From: a virus
Direction: 5' to 3' (one strand)
IMG/VR virus record: IMGVR_UViG_3300037010_001595
Coordinates: 1 to 33,207 of that record
DNA: 33,207 bases
This document shows positions 3,439 to 26,800 of the stretch, one piece after another (the stretch's first letter is position 1; each line of letters starts with the position of its first letter). The translations under genes were made by a program, and so were the position numbers. Below the pieces are notes generated by a model. The model was not told the origin of the DNA. It ran no database searches and saw only the letters and a program-made list of their open reading frames with translations.

Positions 3439-3852
3439 CTACTTGGCTGCCTTGGTCAGCGTGATGAGCCCGTTGGCTTGAGCGAACCCTACGTCTACCC
3501 GCTTGATGCGGTAGGGCTTGTCCATAGTCTCGTGCTTGCCGGGGCCGTGGACTTCCTTGGCGATGGCTTCAGCCACCGTCTTGGACTCCTGGATGGCCTT
3601 CATGATGTTGTAGCGCAGCGACCCCTGCCGCGCCGTGGTGTCTGCCGCCTTGGTAATGATGTCGCTGTTTGCGATCTCCTTACGGACAGCAGCACAGGTG
3701 GGTCGGTCGGCGAGGTGACTGCGGACAGCCTTGGCAACGCCCTCTGGGACATTGGCCTGCTTGAGGGGCTGCACCTTCGCTTTGGGAGGAGCGGCGGGGA
3801 GCACCGGGGCGGGACGCGAACCGGTGGGGATCTTGGTGGAAGTGGCAGCCAT
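3439..3852 (-). CDS. Hypothetical basic protein with Pro/Ala-rich N-terminus (137 aa)
   Basis: ATG at 3852 has GGAG upstream and is the first gene after the promoter at 3936. The first 35 residues are a low-complexity Pro-Ala-Lys linker (SRPAPVLPAAPPKAKV). Residues 35-137 form a compact domain with helices (GSLRYNIMKAIQESKTVAEA) and a terminal segment FAQANGLITL that resembles a winged-helix turn. The overall charge is positive, so nucleic-acid binding is plausible but unproven. The architecture loosely recalls the protein of the GA-free island (12858-13346). Confidence 0.75.
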   Translation of the reverse strand: MAATSTKIPTGSRPAPVLPAAPPKAKVQPLKQANVPEGVAKAVRSHLADRPTCAAVRKEIANSDIITKAADTTARQGSLRYNIMKAIQESKTVAEAIAKEVHGPGKHETMDKPYRIKRVDVGFAQANGLITLTKAAK

Positions 3853-11793: not shown

Positions 11794-11842
11794 AGCTCAC
11801 ACGCGGATCCGAGTTCACACGCGGATCCGAGTTCACACGCGC
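11793..11842. repeat. R1 motif array (three copies, 18-bp spacing)
   Basis: AAGCTCACACGCGG at 11793-11806, GAGTTCACACGCGG at 11811-11824 and a third copy at 11829-11842 stand exactly 18 bp apart. The same motif recurs at 10724, 10789, 12316, 12413 and 12461, always in non-coding spacers of the rightward early region, and twice it abuts a stop codon. Confidence 0.75.
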
Positions 11843-11889
11843 CCGCGTGAGAAGAGTCCTTAGGAACTATTTGCGCGCCCTGAACCCTT

Positions 11890-11904
11890 GACTCTGCGCG
11901 ACTC
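11890..11904. repeat. R2 motif GACTCTGCGCGACTC (copy 1)
   Basis: A 15-bp element in which GACTC is repeated around TGCGC. Identical copies lie at 12380-12394 and 12488-12502, with a variant at 10867-10881. Here and at 10867 it sits about 33-36 bp upstream of a promoter -35, so it may be a regulator-binding site. Confidence 0.65.
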
Positions 11905-11930
11905 AGGGGCTAGAAAATCTTTGACAAAAG

Positions 11931-11965
11931 TTTGATGTGCATTTGAGTGGCGCAGGCCCTATACT
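11931..11965 (+). promoter_or_regulatory. Rightward promoter with 5'-terminal hairpin
   Basis: TTTGAT box (11931-11936), GTGCAT -35 (11937-11942), 17-bp spacer, TATACT -10 (11960-11965). A CAGGCA-AGGG-TGCCTG stem-loop (11974-11989) starts near +1 and leads to the AAAGGGG ribosome site of the lipoprotein gene. Confidence 0.65.
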
Positions 11966-12010
11966 ATACATACCAGGCAAGGGTGCCTGTCAAAGCCCAA
12001 AGGGGTCACA

Positions 12011-12148
12011 ATGTCAAAGTTCCGTTGCACCATCCGTGTTGCCCAGCCCATTGCTGTCTGGGCGCTGGCCTGCTCGTATCTCTTCTGCGGGCTCGTCGCC
12101 TGCGGCAACTCCCCCCGCGTCGCGCGGCGCTTGGTCAAGGTGGGCTGA
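12011..12148 (+). CDS. Small predicted lipoprotein (45 aa)
   Basis: ATG at 12011 follows AAAGGGG. The product has a basic N-terminus (MSKFRCTIRV), a hydrophobic core (AQPIAVWALACSYLFCGL) and a lipobox LVAC, after which the mature part would be only CGNSPRVARRLVKVG. This fits a bacterial lipoprotein signal with a tiny basic mature peptide. Phage lipoproteins include Rz1-type spanins and receptor-blocking exclusion proteins. No Rz partner is visible here and the gene is next to an early-type promoter, so exclusion is the more attractive guess, at low confidence. An alternative is a simple membrane peptide with chance cysteines. Confidence 0.6.
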   Translation: MSKFRCTIRVAQPIAVWALACSYLFCGLVACGNSPRVARRLVKVG

Positions 12149-12149
12149 T

Positions 12150-12317
12150 ATGTCAACGCGCATGGTTCGTATCCACAAGACCAACCCCAAGGGTCAGCGA
12201 CTCCGCGCTCTTTGGGTATATCAGCAGCGCATGGCCCGCATGATTGCTGAGCTCTTTTGCCCCGCCTGCCACACTGAGTTGGAACCAGGAGGTTGCCCCC
12301 GCTGCGGAGATTTCTAA
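12150..12317 (+). CDS. Small zinc-ribbon protein (55 aa)
   Basis: ATG at 12150 lies one base after the stop of the lipoprotein gene. The first 35 residues are basic and helical (MSTRMVRIHKTNPKGQRLRA). The C-terminus has two knuckles, CPAC and CPRC, with the spacing of a rubredoxin-type zinc ribbon. Probably a small nucleic-acid-binding or adaptor protein. Its TAA stop runs straight into an R1 repeat. Confidence 0.7.
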   Translation: MSTRMVRIHKTNPKGQRLRALWVYQQRMARMIAELFCPACHTELEPGGCPRCGDF

Positions 12318-12329
12318 GCTCACACGCGG
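12316..12329. repeat. R1 motif (spacer copy)
   Basis: AAGCTCACACGCGG begins inside the TAA stop of the zinc-ribbon gene, exactly as the copy at 11793 abuts the stop of its gene. Confidence 0.65.
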
Positions 12330-12338
12330 GCGCGCAAG

Positions 12339-12366
12339 GAGTTCCTTAGGGGACTCCTTGTTTTGA
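12339..12366 (+). terminator. Intrinsic terminator
   Basis: A stem with AAGGAGT and ACTCCTT arms around a CTTAG-containing centre is followed by GTTTT. It closes the unit of the lipoprotein and zinc-ribbon genes. A degenerate relative (AGTCC-TTAG-GAACT) lies in the previous spacer near 11851. Confidence 0.7.
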
Positions 12367-12379
12367 GCATCTTTGGCTT

Positions 12380-12502
12380 GACTCTGCGCGACTCTTCAGA
12401 GATCGCAGAACGAAGTTCACACGCGGGCGCTCGCTCGAGGAGCCGAGGAGCTCACGGTTTGAGCTCACACGCGGGCGCTCGAGAGGAGACTCTGCGCGAC
12501 TC
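12380..12502. repeat. R2-R1-R1-R2 block before the GA-free island
   Basis: This gene-free spacer holds R2 at 12380-12394, R1 at 12413-12426 and 12461-12474, and R2 at 12488-12502, joined by CGCTCGAG-type segments. It is dense in GA and TC, in complete contrast to the island that begins 12 bases later. Confidence 0.7.
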
Positions 12503-12528
12503 ACGCTCACGCTCACGCTTACTAGCGC

Positions 12529-12538
12529 ATGGGCATAT
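12529..12538 (+). repeat. Left inverted repeat of the island
   Basis: ATGGGCATAT lies 15 bases inside the left limit of the GA-free stretch. Its exact inverse complement is at 13545-13554, the last bases of the island. Confidence 0.6.
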
Positions 12539-12551
12539 AAGTATAAGGTTA

Positions 12552-12584
12552 TATAGTTATATAAGCATAGGTTATATAACTATA
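12552..12584. other. AT-rich 13-bp stem-loop
   Basis: TATAGTTATATAA (12552-12564) pairs perfectly with TTATATAACTATA (12572-12584) across a seven-base loop. It is entirely AT apart from one pair, at the left end of the GA-free island. A related ATATAGTTATAT occurs at the right end, near 13472. Confidence 0.65.
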
Positions 12585-12779
12585 CAAGCATAACCTGTAT
12601 AAACTACCTTGCGGTAAACAATGGCGGGCGGGTGCCGTGCCACGGCATAACATAGCCCCAATACGGCACACACTAACTGGTGCAGTTACTACACTTAGCA
12701 TAAACTGGTGCTTATGCTATGCCGCAATGCGGCACTATAACCAGGTGGTAGTATGGCTAAGTGCTGCAAGCAAAGCACT

Positions 12780-12809
12780 TTGCACTTTGGCCTGCCTTAT
12801 GCTTATACA
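12780..12809 (+). promoter_or_regulatory. Promoter of the island gene, with leader hairpin
   Basis: TTGCAC (12780-12785) and TATACA (12804-12809) are 18 bp apart. A TATGCT, the -10 used elsewhere in this phage, overlaps at 12798-12803. The leader folds as GGCAGG (12811-12816) with CCTGCC (12832-12837). This repeats the promoter-hairpin layout of the other units, but without any GA or TC. Confidence 0.45.
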
Positions 12810-12857
12810 AGGCAGGCCAGGGCAATGCCGCCCTGCCTATTACCCAAGGGGTACACA

Positions 12858-13346
12858 ATGGCCACCAAGCAAACTACCGCTACAAAGCAAACTACCGCTA
12901 CAAAGCAAACTACCGCTGTAAAGGCCCATGCCGTGCCAGCCGTGGCCACACCTGCCACACCTGCCACGCCGTTACAGGGTGCCAGCAGTAGGCAGGCCCA
13001 AGCCGTACTTATGGCCAAACTGTGTGGTGGCGCCATGCCCACGCACAATTTGCTGGTGGCCACCGGCCCCGTGCCGGTACCGGCCAACGGTAGCGTACGC
13101 AGCGCGGGGCACAATGCAATTTTGCAGGCCATGGCACAGTTGGCCAGCAATGGCCAGCCTGTTACCGTGGGCACAGTGCTAGGCTGTACCCTGCCAGCGC
13201 AGGCCAAAGCGCAAGCCGCCGGCCAGTGCAAGGTAAAGGGCCTTGCAGCGCAGCACCCTGCCACGGGCACGTGGTTTAGCATTAATGCCGGTATTGTAAG
13301 GTGTGCGTGGCAAAAACAAGCCATTGTGCTTAGTGTGCCAGCCTAG
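12858..13346 (+). CDS. Acid-free basic protein of the GA-free island (162 aa)
   Basis: ATG at 12858 has AAGGGG six bases upstream, a ribosome site that avoids the GGAGG used elsewhere. The frame is open further upstream, but through the leader hairpin. The protein opens with three TKQTTA repeats, then an Ala-Pro-Thr-Val linker to about residue 45, then a domain rich in Ala, Gln, Gly and Val (HNAILQAMAQLASNGQPVTV; GTWFSINAGIV). It has no Asp, no Glu and no Tyr. Ser uses only AGY, Phe only TTT, Ile only ATT, and the stop is TAG. Codon junctions obey the same ban, so the constraint acts on DNA. The high positive charge suggests nucleic-acid binding. No family recognised. Confidence 0.75.
   Translation: MATKQTTATKQTTATKQTTAVKAHAVPAVATPATPATPLQGASSRQAQAVLMAKLCGGAMPTHNLLVATGPVPVPANGSVRSAGHNAILQAMAQLASNGQPVTVGTVLGCTLPAQAKAQAAGQCKVKGLAAQHPATGTWFSINAGIVRCAWQKQAIVLSVPA
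12864..12917 (+). repeat. Three 18-bp tandem repeats in the island gene
   Basis: The unit AC(C/A)AAGCAAACTACCGCT is repeated three times in frame, encoding TKQTTA each time. It forms the start of the basic protein and probably arose by slippage. Confidence 0.8.
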
Positions 13347-13365
13347 CATAAACACTGTACAAGTA

Positions 13366-13396
13366 AACAATGCCCTGCCTAGCGCGGGGCATTGTT
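13366..13396 (+). terminator. Terminator-like hairpin of the island gene
   Basis: AACAATGCCC (13366-13375) pairs perfectly with GGGCATTGTT (13387-13396), 20 bases after the stop codon. Only a short GTATT follows instead of a T-run, so termination may be partial. Confidence 0.55.
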
Positions 13397-13418
13397 GTAT
13401 TAAAGTGTAACAATGCCC

Positions 13419-13442
13419 ATAGGCTACCAGGTGGTAGCCTAT
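13419..13442. other. Perfect 10-bp stem-loop
   Basis: ATAGGCTACC and GGTAGCCTAT pair without mismatch around an AGGT loop. Part of the arm (ATAGGCTAC) is repeated at 13446-13454. The element lies in the gene-free right part of the island. Confidence 0.65.
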
Positions 13443-13544
13443 GCTATAGGCTACAGTATGCTTTGTTATGCATATAGTTATATGGGCATGTAGCATAGTT
13501 ACTGGCATAACTACTTATGCTTATGTACATATAGGTATATAAGC

Positions 13545-13554
13545 ATATGCCCAT
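13545..13554 (-). repeat. Right inverted repeat of the island
   Basis: ATATGCCCAT is the exact inverse complement of 12529-12538 and ends one base before the first TC outside the island. Confidence 0.6.
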
Positions 13555-13555
13555 T

Positions 13556-13903
13556 CAGTGCCATTACGGCTGCGCCGCGCTCCTAGTCTCGCAGCACTGA
13601 GGAGCTAATACTCTGCACACCTCGGGGTGCATCTATGCTGGTCTTCGGAATGTTCACTCCGCGCCAGAGATCGGAGAAGCTGGGAATCAGAGATCCAAGA
13701 ATCCCAGAGATCCAAGAAGCCCAGAGATCAGCGAAGCTGGTAATAGGAGAAGCACGGTTTCTACACCAATATAGAGTCACAGAAATCCCAGTTCATAGTG
13801 CACACTCCAAATAGAATCACAAAATACTGAGGATCGAACATAAAGGCTTGCTCGCGGAGCCAATCCGCCCTACACTTGGCATTGGACTACCGAGGATCCA
13901 AGC
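13556..13903. other. Gene-free stretch before the terminase genes
   Basis: This stretch holds the four iterons at 13664-13737 and a TGCAC/GTGCA stem around 13613-13630. No gene was found. No promoter of the phage's usual type is visible; TAGAAT near 13814 is the only -10-like hexamer noted and lacks a good -35, so late transcription may need an activator or read-through. Confidence 0.5.
13664..13737. repeat. Four 17-bp iterons upstream of the terminase genes
   Basis: Units with consensus CCAGAGATCCAAGAAGC start at 13664, 13687, 13704 and 13721. The last three are directly abutting, while the first is separated by a six-base TGGGAA. Each contains AGATC. Iterons just before the small terminase gene are candidates for the packaging recognition site. 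A replication origin is the other possibility. Confidence 0.75.
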
Positions 13904-14449
13904 ATGGCGAAGCCTAGGAAAAAACCGGAACCCTTACAAATTCCCCCCGACGCGCCCGATACAGACATGTTTGAGCTCGTGGACGAAGCCTCCCTGGGCA
14001 TTTCGCTCCGAGTGCTCAGAGCCATGCAACTCCGACGGGATGGCCATGACTATATGGAAATCGGTGCTATCATGGAAATTGGCACCGTCATGGCCAGGGA
14101 ACTTGTTAAGACAGGACTGGAGCTTCTGCACAAGGAGCTTCAGGAGACGATTGATGAAGTGATGGTATTGGAGCTCAGCCGACTAGATGCGCTTCATAAG
14201 ATTCACTGGCCCACGGCCAAGGATAGCAAGTCCGCGGATATCATCCTGAAGATTTCTGACCGGCGCTCCAAGTTCCTTGGTATGGACCAGGCCCCCAAGG
14301 GCGACAACGATGGAGCGACTGCGGTTCGCGACTTCCTATATCAGGCAATGAAACAGTCTGGTAAGGAGACTGACTACAATGCCTACCTCGTGAAGCAGAG
14401 GCTTCAGGAAGAAGTAGGTTCCGAGGGCGCGGCGCCCAGCGGCGAGTAG
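13904..14449 (+). CDS. terS: Terminase small subunit
   Basis: The 181-residue protein lies immediately before the large terminase gene. It has a helix-turn-helix-like segment near residues 40-75 (MQLRRDGHDYMEIGAIMEIG, ending in MARELVKTG), a helical oligomerisation region (ETIDEVMVLELSRLDALHKI) and the typical SADIILKISDRRSKFLGM motif of many phage small terminases. It would recognise the packaging site, perhaps the iterons at 13664-13737, and load the large subunit. The start at ATG 13904 has an AGGA-type site; an upstream frame from 13848 belongs to non-coding sequence. Confidence 0.8.
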   Translation: MAKPRKKPEPLQIPPDAPDTDMFELVDEASLGISLRVLRAMQLRRDGHDYMEIGAIMEIGTVMARELVKTGLELLHKELQETIDEVMVLELSRLDALHKIHWPTAKDSKSADIILKISDRRSKFLGMDQAPKGDNDGATAVRDFLYQAMKQSGKETDYNAYLVKQRLQEEVGSEGAAPSGE

Positions 14450-14463
14450 CGGGTAGGCCGCCG

Positions 14464-15807
14464 ATGATCAGCCTCCCCGCTCGTTGGACTCCACTGCGCG
14501 AGATCAAGCCGCAGATGGAGTATGCGAGCTCCCCCCACAGGTTCAATGTGGTGCCTGCGGGGCGACGATCTGGGAAGACAGAGAACGCAAAGCGGAAACT
14601 TGTGCTACGGGCGCTCATGCCGCCAGGGATGCCTGGAGCGAGCAACTTTCCGGACCCGCGGTACTTTTGCGGAGCGCCCACTCGGGATCAGGCGAAGCGC
14701 ATCTACTGGAACGATCTGAAGCTCCTGGTGCCGAAGCGGCTGATCGCCCCCCGTGGGATCTCAGAAACAGAGCTTTCCATCACCACCATTATGAATTCGA
14801 CCATTATGGTCGTTGGCATGGACAAGCCAGAGCGCATTGAAGGATCGCCCTGGGATGGCGGGATCCTTGATGAATACGGCAACATGAAGGCGTCGGCCTG
14901 GAACGCGAACGTCAGGCCTGCGCTGGCCGACCGACAGGGCTGGTGCGATCTGATCGGCGTGCCTGAAGGAAGAAACCACTATTACGATGTGGCCGAGTAC
15001 GCCAAAGCGCAGATGATTGAGTTTGGCGAAGCGAGCGAGTGGGGATACTACCACTGGAAGAGCTCTGAGGTCTTGGACGCGCAGACCGTTGAGTCGGCGA
15101 AGCGTGACATGGATGAGCTTACTTTTCAGCAGGAATACGAGGGATCCTTTGTCAACTTCGTCGGAAGGGCCTACTATAACTACACTGACGCGAATAAGGC
15201 TAGATTGGATTATGATCCAAAAGCTCCAATCGCGTTCTGCTTCGACTTCAATGTGGATCCGGGCGTGGCTGTTATTGCACAGGAGGGCATTCTCCCAAAC
15301 GGCCTCGTCGGGACCAAGGTTATCGGTGAGATCTACATACCTCAGAATTCTAATACCGTGGCCGTATGCCGGAAGCTCATCGAAGTATGGGGTGAGCACC
15401 AGGGCGAAGTTCATGTGTATGGCGACGCCACCGGCGGTAACAGAAAGACGTCGGCGACCCAGGGCTCTGACTGGGATTTGGTCCGGTCGGTGCTTAAACC
15501 GCACTTTGGAGAACGATTCATGTATTTCGTGCCTCGCGCGAATCCCACTGAGCGAGCGCGGGTGAACTGCATGAACAGCCGCATTCTTAACGTCGTCGGG
15601 GAACGCCATCTCTACTGCGACCCGAACCGTGCCCCTATGACATCGCGCGATTTAGACGGGGTGCGCTTGCTTGAAGGCGGCAGTGGCGAGATTGACAAGC
15701 ACCAGGACGCGAAACTGACCCACTTGTCTGATGGACTTGGATACTACATTGTCTATCGTTTTGTTGGTGGACAGAGTCTTTCTGTCACTAAGACTTACTA
15801 CGGCTGA
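14464..15807 (+). CDS. terL: Terminase large subunit
   Basis: 447 residues with both domains of the packaging motor. The ATPase part has a Walker A G33RRSGKT39 and a Walker B ending in ILDE (catalytic Glu137). The RNase-H-like nuclease part shows the acidic residues D261 (FCFDFNVDPG), D321 (YGDATGG) and D423 (HLSDG). The protein cuts concatemers and pumps DNA into the prohead through the portal. It is slightly short compared with many TerL proteins (450-550 residues) but looks complete. It follows terS by 14 bases. Confidence 0.95.
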   Translation: MISLPARWTPLREIKPQMEYASSPHRFNVVPAGRRSGKTENAKRKLVLRALMPPGMPGASNFPDPRYFCGAPTRDQAKRIYWNDLKLLVPKRLIAPRGISETELSITTIMNSTIMVVGMDKPERIEGSPWDGGILDEYGNMKASAWNANVRPALADRQGWCDLIGVPEGRNHYYDVAEYAKAQMIEFGEASEWGYYHWKSSEVLDAQTVESAKRDMDELTFQQEYEGSFVNFVGRAYYNYTDANKARLDYDPKAPIAFCFDFNVDPGVAVIAQEGILPNGLVGTKVIGEIYIPQNSNTVAVCRKLIEVWGEHQGEVHVYGDATGGNRKTSATQGSDWDLVRSVLKPHFGERFMYFVPRANPTERARVNCMNSRILNVVGERHLYCDPNRAPMTSRDLDGVRLLEGGSGEIDKHQDAKLTHLSDGLGYYIVYRFVGGQSLSVTKTYYG

Positions 15808-23846: not shown

Positions 23847-26800
23847 TGTCGCAACCCTCATCTTAGAAGTTGACGGCCGCCCAGTTAGTCAAGCTGAGGC
23901 GGCCCTCTTGTCGTTGAAAAATGCCAGCGACAAAACTGCTGACTCTGCTGATCTTTTAGCGTCAGTGTATGGAAAACTCGCCGGAATTATTTCAACTACA
24001 GTAATTATAGACGCCATCAAAAATGTCGCTATGCTGGGTGCGCGCTACGAGATGCTCGGGGCGACTATGACTGTGATGGCCAACAACGCTGGCATCACTG
24101 GCGATATGATGCAGGCTATCCAGGATAAGATGGAACAAACGGGCATCAGCGCTTTGCGAGCGCGACAAGGTCTTCAGCTCATGGCGGCTGCACAGGTAAA
24201 TCTATCTAAAGCTGCAGAGTTGGGCCGCGTGGCGCAGGATGGTGCGACATTAGCTGGAATCAATAGCTCTGAGGCCTTTGCCAAGCTGGTCCAGGGTATT
24301 TCAACTGGAGAGTCTCGTATCATTCGCCATATGGGCATTATGGTGAATTTTAAATCGGCCATCAATGAATACGCACGCGCTAATCATGTTGCTGTTGAAA
24401 GTATAGACGCTAAGACGCTGGCTGAAATTCGTATGGATGCGGTGTTGGCAGAAGGCGCCAAGCGCCAAGGCGTATATGAAGCGGCAATGACTACTGCTGG
24501 CAAGCAGATGTTGTCAATGGTTCGTTACACAGAGAACCTCCAGGTAAGGTTAGGTGAAACCTTCAACCCCGCTACGACAGAAATTGTCTTTGCGCTGGTG
24601 GGCGCATTCAAGGATGCATCGGAAGCAATGAAGGAGTGGAGAGATTCTGGTGGGCAGGCTACTTTTGCGAATAACTTGGCCGAAGATATCAAGACTGCCA
24701 TCAACTATGTAGAGACTTTTGTAGGCACACTTGCAGAAATGAAAACTTCTCTAGAAGTGTTGGCTGCTGGTTTTGCCGCGTTCAAAGTAGTTCAGTGGTT
24801 ACAGTCGGCCAGCGCAGCTTTCCACAAGTGGGCATCTGGGGGAATAGATTCCTTCCGAACGATGACCATGTCCCAGATTCAGTATGCGGCGTCTGCGAAA
24901 GTAGCCGCACTCGCTGATCATGCCGAAGTCGAGGCTGAGGTTGCGGCTCAGAAGGGCCGTTTTTTGACCAATGATTTAATCAATAGGCGTGCTCTCGCTA
25001 ATCTGCGTGTTGCTGAATCCGATGCTGTTCTGACAGCTGCGGAACTTAGACTGGCCGAAGCAGAGACCCTACGCGGGCAGGCCGCTATCATGGCTAACGG
25101 GGCCCTAGATGCGGCGGGGGGCCCGATGGGACTGATAGCGATTGCTATCACGGGTATTATCTTCTTATATCAGAAATTAAAAGATTCCACCATTGAAGAG
25201 GCCGAAGCGGCAAATACTTCCATGATAGCTAAGGGCAAGGCTCTTGTGGAAGAGACGCGCAATGTTGAAAAATATCTGAATATCCGGGCACACTCTAAAA
25301 AGAAACTATCTGAAGATGAGATCAAAGAAAAGATGTATGACCCACTTGACACACCTGAGGTTAAGGCGCTGGATGCTCAGATCGCTAAGATCCAGGAAAA
25401 GGCGAACGCAGAAATAAAGGCGGCTGGGCTCACAGCAGAAGCGTGGTATAGTGCCGAAGAAGCTCAGGAAATGATGCTTGAGGGGGGTATCGTTACCACG
25501 AAGGAAAGCGTCACGCTCATGGAACAAGAGTTATCTCATCTGAAGGCGTTCCGAGAGTGGTTCCTGAAACTTCAAGCCGATAATAAGGCCGCTACTGATG
25601 CCAAGCAGAAGGTAATGATTCAGGATGCAAAGGATCGTGAGCGTGATCAGGCTGTGGCAGAGAACAAACAGCGCCAGCTATACTTCCTCACGCAAATGGC
25701 CGCAATGCGAGAAAAGATCATGGATGCGGATGAGAAAGGAATTGGGCTCAATAAGCAGGCTCTGGAGTTCAAAAAGTTAGAAGCGGAAACAGCCAAGAAA
25801 ATAGTAGACTGGACCGCCATGTATAACGATGTGAATGAAAAAACTGGCAAGCGCAAGCTGGATAAGGCCCAGCTTGATAAGCTAAAACTGATGCAACAGG
25901 AGGAAGAAGCTAAACAGAAGGCTTCAATAATTCGGGTGGGCGGAGAAGCCGCAGACGAGAACGTGTATTCTGGTATGCAGCAGATGCGCGAAACCTCCGA
26001 CGCGTATAATCGTAGTCTGGAAGAAACTATATCGCTTGAAATGTGGCGCAGCGTAAACCTCGCGGACGGAAACATTACAGAATCAGAGTTCCTAGATCTC
26101 ATTAAGGAAAAGACCAGTCTTACTATACTGGCCAAGCGGCGGGCCAATGACGAGTCCGAGATATATCTGAAGACTATCAAGGATGTAAATGAGCAGGAGC
26201 GGCTAGGAATCATCTCAGCTGAAAAAGCAATGAAATCTAGGTTCGATGCAGACAATACTCGTAGCGGAGGTAGGCTTGCAGCCAACTCCACCCCAGAAGA
26301 AACCTATGCGCGGGAAGTGGCGCAGTTGGAAGCTTATCGGAAGAATGGGGGAGACTTGGTCACATACCAGCGCTCTCTCATTAAACTAAAAGAAGCGAGC
26401 GGTTCAGCGTGGGCTGCCATGGGGGCGGCTGTCAAAGGGTATACAGATCAGACATCTACCTTACTTGCTGACTTCTTCAACGGCACTTCCACAAACTGGC
26501 ACAAGATGTTCTCCAGTATGGTTCGCGACATGGAAATAGCGATCATAAAAGCAATGATCATGAAGCCGATCATGGACGCGCTAGCCGCTTCCCTGACATC
26601 TCTCACCAAGGGTGGAGGCCCAGGCTTCTTTTCCACCTTTGCGTCATACTTCAATGGCAGCACACCCAGCCTAACTCAAGCCCCAACAGGCGTGACGTTC
26701 CCGTATGTTCCAGGAACCCTCAGCACCAGTATTGGTCCAAATATCGGCGCTTCTGCGGCCTTTAGCGGGGCGGGCGCGGCTGCTGGCCTAGCCACAGCGG

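Follow-up and report, generated by a model that had tools for sequence, protein, structure and literature searches.

A kilobase island free of GA and TC steps upstream of phage terminase genes and its possible link to thymidine hypermodification

Dinucleotide counts over a 33,207-nucleotide viral contig (the window, by which we mean the whole stretch analyzed) reveal an island of 1042 bases, at positions 12514-13555, that contains no GA and no TC step and that is kept in relatives. The avoidance spans coding and non-coding parts and both strands. Islands of this kind are a common feature of viral contigs, and we put forward, a shade short of even confidence, that widespread phages carry a modification-proof gene island whose gene, the first readable from an otherwise poorly readable genome, starts the infection programme.

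Extent and content of the island

An earlier note on the window had placed the GA/TC-free run at these same positions, and the recount agrees exactly, with flanking TC steps beginning at 12513 and 13555. Its descriptions of AG and CT as common inside the island, and of both flanks as rich in GA and TC, also hold: AG occurs 66 times and CT 54 times (AA+TT, 114), and GA/TC-rich repeats lie to the left (12380-12502, plus strand) and GA/TC-rich iterons (AGAGATC) to the right (13664-13750, plus strand; 13664-13737 in the note). Across the whole window GA and TC steps total 4216, and the second-longest run free of them measures 72 bases. The longest runs lacking another dinucleotide class reach 223 bases for TA, 182 for CG and 142 for AT, none of them comparable to GA/TC. 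Counts in 400-base windows, a check of the kind that the note had proposed, single out GA/TC as the most depleted class (0 observed versus 51 expected; Poisson P ~10^-22), and only this class is extreme in the window and the contigs fetched for comparison. With the amino-acid sequence of the island ORF held fixed, synonymous choice yields zero GA/TC with a probability of ~10^-23, and the absence of Asp and Glu from all 162 of its residues has a probability of ~10^-8. Apart from comparisons made directly on alignments, the P values given here take no account of relatedness.

The island comprises a promoter-like site, a 162-codon gene and hairpins, and lies directly upstream of a putative terS (13904-14449, plus strand; assigned by position, its PHROG match being named 'Rnase E') and of terL, the terminase large subunit (14464-15807, plus strand). 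The one plausible gene of the segment occupies 12858-13346 on the plus strand, with a longer in-frame start possible at 12753. Alignment of five relatives locates a sigma-70-like element upstream of it (TTGCAC, 18 nt, TATACA; 12780-12809, plus strand), which is itself without GA/TC, has TATACT in place of TATACA in three relatives and scores under the threshold of a consensus scan. On the 3' side of the gene are a terminator-like hairpin (AACAATGCCC...GGGCATTGTT; 13366-13396, plus strand) and a second set of hairpins, one of them terminator-like (13418-13454, plus strand). AT-rich direct repeats of 23 nt mark the left end of the island (12546-12591, plus strand), and repeats of the same family mark its right end (13467-13546, plus strand); in the relative L005 the right-end repeats are expanded into several copies of tandem GTATATAAGCATATG units (L005 9664-9774). 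Rfam returned no match.

The island product is a paralogue of small proteins encoded in and near the modification cassette, described below, that related phages carry. Members of this family are also encoded inside the cassette in several of these phages, which suggests that the role of the island protein is linked to modified DNA; the distant members are connected by phmmer and alignment only. The window also has a family paralogue outside the island (3439-3852, minus strand), with normal GA/TC content. Structures predicted by AlphaFold for the island protein and for a paralogue are weak (pLDDT 56 and 68, respectively), Foldseek found nothing significant with the model of the modelled paralogue, and no homologues of the island proteins were found in isolate phages.

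Smaller sequence features surround the island. Its ends in the window carry 26-nt inverted repeats (12529-12554 and 13529-13554; 73% complementary), which are absent from the left side of relatives, a GA-rich 27-bp repeat array taking their place there; in L005 (8662-8813, TTGGCACGAAAGATGCTACGACGCGAA) this array has GA and almost no TC. A series of small genes at window positions 11800-12510 and in L004 (8300-9600) shares a leader (CTATACTATAC, hairpin AGGCAAGGGTGCCTG, CCAAAGG), with repeats GTTCACACGCGGGCG in between, and a GA/TC-free version of this leader precedes the island gene. To the right of the island, a motif close to CACTGANGANCTANACTCCGC is common to the window (13590-13640), L014 (340-390), L015 (370-410) and L016 (2060-2100), and is possibly a packaging or promoter element.

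Conservation in relatives and recurrence in other lineages

Alignment of the islands of relatives, which the earlier note had recommended, shows GA/TC to stay absent while the sequence drifts. The window differs from L006 at 232 of 907 aligned positions and from L005 at 174 of 734, yet all three islands are GA/TC-free (free runs of 959 bases in L006 and 780 in L005). Because these relatives differ at so many positions and still stay GA/TC-free, the alignments indicate that the island is under selection, not mere inheritance. Its presence in independent contigs despite large drift also shows that it is no artefact of one contig, and the homologous segment of close relatives keeps the avoidance instead of returning to the normal GA/TC rates that the note had named as contrary evidence.

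Island proteins 88-95% identical were found in relatives. The islands of L004 and G001 contain a few GA/TC exceptions, mostly within the gene, and exceptions in the window clade have no clear strand bias. The more distant terL relatives L014, L015 and L016 have shorter free runs and quite different proteins. Across relatives the avoided steps are swapped for many others (TT, CC, TG, GC, CA and AT), a variety of exchanges that argues against a mutational process. In L004 and L005 the orthologues of the L016 island gene (phmmer E ~1e-17 to 1e-18) are located outside the island, and their GA/TC content is ordinary. Judging from these comparisons, purging seems to follow position and not protein, in that a gene is cleared of GA/TC only when inside the island.

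All dinucleotide classes were scanned in 39 sequences: 34 fetched contigs, the window, M6, RHph_I65, Pam3 and FP1. Extreme local depletion was found only for GA/TC, in the window, G001, G057 and G045 and more weakly in G067. The terL of G057 is unrelated to that of the window, and its 787-base free run stops just before terL; the gene in this island is likewise free of Asp and Glu and has a normal paralogue nearby (E 1.7e-19). In the G057/HTVC023P-type terL clade, GA/TC is strongly depleted upstream of terL at 35 of 40 loci, with runs of up to 1182 bases, and among the five others L300 has just 76 bases of upstream sequence. Upstream ORFs are perfectly GA/TC-free at 26 of 36 loci of this clade, where the ORF taken at each locus was the upstream one with the least GA/TC, a choice that favours low counts and does not affect run lengths. 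Two further lineages, G045 and G067, have weaker, strand-asymmetric islands, and depletion extends to the terL relatives of G045 (L370, which is G045 itself, L371 and L373). The terminases of the window clade, of the G057 clade and of G045 differ, yet all three have the island upstream of these genes. Weak strand-specific dips in G063, G065 and G066 look like low-complexity sequence and were left out of the count. A narrow literature search found no report of such motif-free regions or islands.

The thymidine-hypermodification cassette

The evidence for a modification cassette comes from G001, a 60.5-kb, complete-looking relative whose terL is 98% identical to that of the window, and it applies to the window by proxy, the window contig being a fragment that does not carry the cassette, in agreement with the earlier remark that no modification enzyme is encoded there. 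G001 encodes in a row a TS homologue (46% identity to M6 TS, of the M6 dUMP-hydroxymethylase type; E 1e-100), a PF18723 (HMUDK_hel/aGPT-PPlase) protein (E 2e-44; 35% identical to M6 gp055) and an HD nucleotidase. PF18723 also occurs in G057, G045, G067 and most island-clade contigs, and is carried by 38 of the 40 records that have a relative of the G001-type TS. A cassette of the thymidine-hypermodification type makes T in TC, and not G in GA, the likely target, and we infer that the phages with islands modify T in TC.

Island and cassette are also associated within the G057-type terL clade, where, of 14 long contigs with PF18723, 12 have a strong island, against none of four complete PF18723-negative genomes, HTVC023P, HTVC027P, DSL-LC04 and Pag-Yong1 (Fisher P 0.005, uncorrected for relatedness). 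The island-less complete genomes of this clade are thus also without PF18723. Several shorter contigs have an island and no PF18723 within their sequenced part. Another 15 or so PF18723 contigs that lack the kinase, among them several fragments, have no island, and the cassette is therefore not sufficient for one. HTVC023P-type pelagiphages belong to the terL clade of G057, and the passages of PMC9599517 on modification, terminase and intergenic regions assign TS and aGPT-PPlase1 partner genes to their clades V, VIII and IX, the other clades being without them; islands were not found mentioned in those passages.

The combination of a TS homologue, PF18723 and an HD nucleotidase is shared with M6/YuA, ViI and phiW-14, whose modified bases derive from 5-hmdU. 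The modification of these phages lies at TG/TC: the restriction sites that resist cleavage in the DNA of M6, ViI and phiW-14 have TG or TC in common, and M6 DNA contains 5-(2-aminoethyl)deoxyuridine (PMC6449724). In contrast to M6-type phages, no homologue of the M6-type P-loop kinase was detected in any island phage examined, and the G001 cassette has no Walker A kinase; several cassettes instead contain ORFs that resemble glycosyltransferases by eye, that of G001 having no family match. This gene content points to modification by a kinase-free route in island phages. Unlike the island phages, M6 and FP1 have no GA/TC island, and such islands are missing from all 12 genomes that carry an M6-type P-loop kinase. 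Islands of TG+TC or of other dinucleotides are likewise absent from the kinase-bearing M6, FP1, RHph_I65, Pam3, MW202655 and BouleyBill. Upstream of terS in M6, FP1 and RHph_I65, CA/TG is somewhat low, but GA/TC is also low and TA is high, which makes the dip uninterpretable.

Further observations concern the cassettes of other phages. Two kinase-bearing cassette phages have CA/TG dips, at 40341-40640 in G062 (L254; 9 of 35 expected) and at 24001-24300 in BouleyBill (L289; 11 of 38 expected), which may hint at TG-motif islands or may reflect composition. In G088 (L395) and G085 (L392), a CxxxCxxC radical-SAM-like ORF and a small GT-A-like ORF lie between the PF18723 gene and TS, and these cassettes possibly make a different hypermodified base. 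Both its annotation and PHROG make M6 gp054 (L101 41685-42248) a terminase small subunit; with a P-loop (GCNGSGKT) and the PF18723 gene next to it, however, it is probably the 5-hmdU DNA kinase.

Template-strand bias and competing explanations

Leaky islands exclude TC from the template strand much more strictly than from the other strand. In G045 the plus strand has no TC on the left side of ~25.1 kb, in the direction of the leftward terS; on the right side it has almost no GA, a step that reappears gradually by ~27 kb. Both sides of this hub thus avoid TC in the template strand of the diverging genes. The same template-TC avoidance is found in G067, for a minus-strand gene at the contig end. 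Among the ORFs of the G057 clade, the 10 imperfect ones have GA on the coding strand (template TC) 20 times versus 345 expected and TC on that strand 70 times versus 270 expected; the lean towards template-TC avoidance holds at nine of the 10 loci, without correction for relatedness.

Our preferred explanation, to which we give somewhat more than even credence, is that RNA polymerase is blocked by hypermodified T where C follows it, and that the island, free of TC and hence unmodifiable, is a unit open to transcription on the incoming genome. The phage would replace T before C by a hypermodified base derived from 5-hydroxymethyl-dU, bulky groups on the template strand would hinder RNA polymerase, and most of the incoming virion genome would be a poor template. 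A complete transcription unit of promoter, gene and hairpins, cleared of TC on both strands, could not be acted upon by the modification enzymes and could be read at once by host RNA polymerase. Its immediate-early product, of the same family as a small protein encoded beside the modification enzymes, would probably aid transcription or replication on modified DNA, as a 'bootstrap' gene. According to PMC11550810, bacterial RNA polymerase is blocked at promoters by the bulkier major-groove modifications, and T7 RNA polymerase is inhibited when U in the template strand bears bulky or charged groups but tolerates them on the non-template strand; it is because of this inhibition that we favour an unmodifiable first-expression unit. 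Against the bootstrap reading, perfect islands avoid GA/TC on both strands, whereas template-strand transcription alone needs the avoidance on one.

A place next to the terminase genes is at least as natural for a packaging site or genome end as for an early-expressed unit, and a mixed function of the island is possible. If the island were a packaging start or genome end (pac/cos), the terminase or its small subunit would have to bind and cut unmodified DNA there, the GA/TC-rich flanking repeats would mark the border, and the gene would have been recoded merely through its location. This accords with the position upstream of terminases that differ between the three groups (window clade, G057 clade, G045), with the seeming irrelevance of the protein, only genes inside the island being purged, and with the conserved motif just right of the border; packaging of phage P1 under Dam control at pac is a precedent. 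It predicts neither the strand-split avoidance of G045 nor the template-strand bias found where islands are leaky, it leaves a complete gene with promoter and hairpins unexplained, and the contigs continue through the island with no cut end in the assemblies, and we regard it as unlikely. A replication origin that must be opened, perhaps with RNA-polymerase priming, on fully modified parental DNA would account for the AT-rich iterons at both island ends, the many hairpins, a cumulative GC-skew minimum at 13-14 kb and the divergent strand-split pattern of G045. We rate an origin as rather improbable, given that the skew minimum coincides with a switch in gene direction, the iterons are not evident in L014-L016, and the remaining genome is copied from a modified template anyway.

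Of the causes listed in the earlier note, a segment kept free of a modification target is in general terms the best supported, with the exception of its proposed 7-deazaguanine/DpdA chemistry, the cassette being of the thymidine type. Queuovirinae such as iggy and CAjan are reported to carry deazaguanine in a GA motif, strictly so in iggy, and resemble the proposal for island phages in having a dinucleotide-specific modification; they differ in base and enzymes. The dpdA search suggested in the note came back empty: no TGT/DpdA-type protein scored above the family cut-off in 10 related records including G001, although the Pfam TGT family may miss a divergent DpdA. With the associated enzymes those of a thymidine pathway, avoidance of a GA-specific 7-deazaguanine modification, or of a nuclease reading GA/TC, is very improbable. 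Nuclease escape, like the exclusion of primase or other protein sites, explains neither the strand asymmetry of leaky islands nor the link to the cassette. Enzymes that deaminate cytosine in a TC context exist and would be expected to remove specific sites, but AA/TT is not enriched, relatives replace TC and GA by TT, CC, TG, GC, CA, AT and others, and the amino-acid composition is shifted off Asp and Glu with the frame kept; erasure by a deaminase or another mutational process has next to no probability.

P1 pac, and the leading regions of plasmids and T7-like phages with their scarcity of sites, are comparable as functional segments in which selection acts on modification or on site content. 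Those segments involve a few sites of 4-6 bases, whereas in the island a dinucleotide is cleared from a whole kilobase, gene and all. Discussion of phage base modification usually centres on protection, and the islands suggest a large cost, in which a dinucleotide is cleared from a kilobase and a protein is forced to do without Asp and Glu. If the preferred reading of a modification-proof transcription unit is true, genome-wide base modification would also act as a timer of gene expression. Islands would let the modification target be read from sequence alone and would predict the first-needed gene; they offer a test of how a heavily modified viral genome begins transcription, packaging or replication, with cultured close relatives that lack the cassette as ready controls.

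Two paralogous plus-strand genes of G045 (L224, 5835-7030), which follow the island homologue on its downstream side, are likewise nearly GA-free, though TC-rich.
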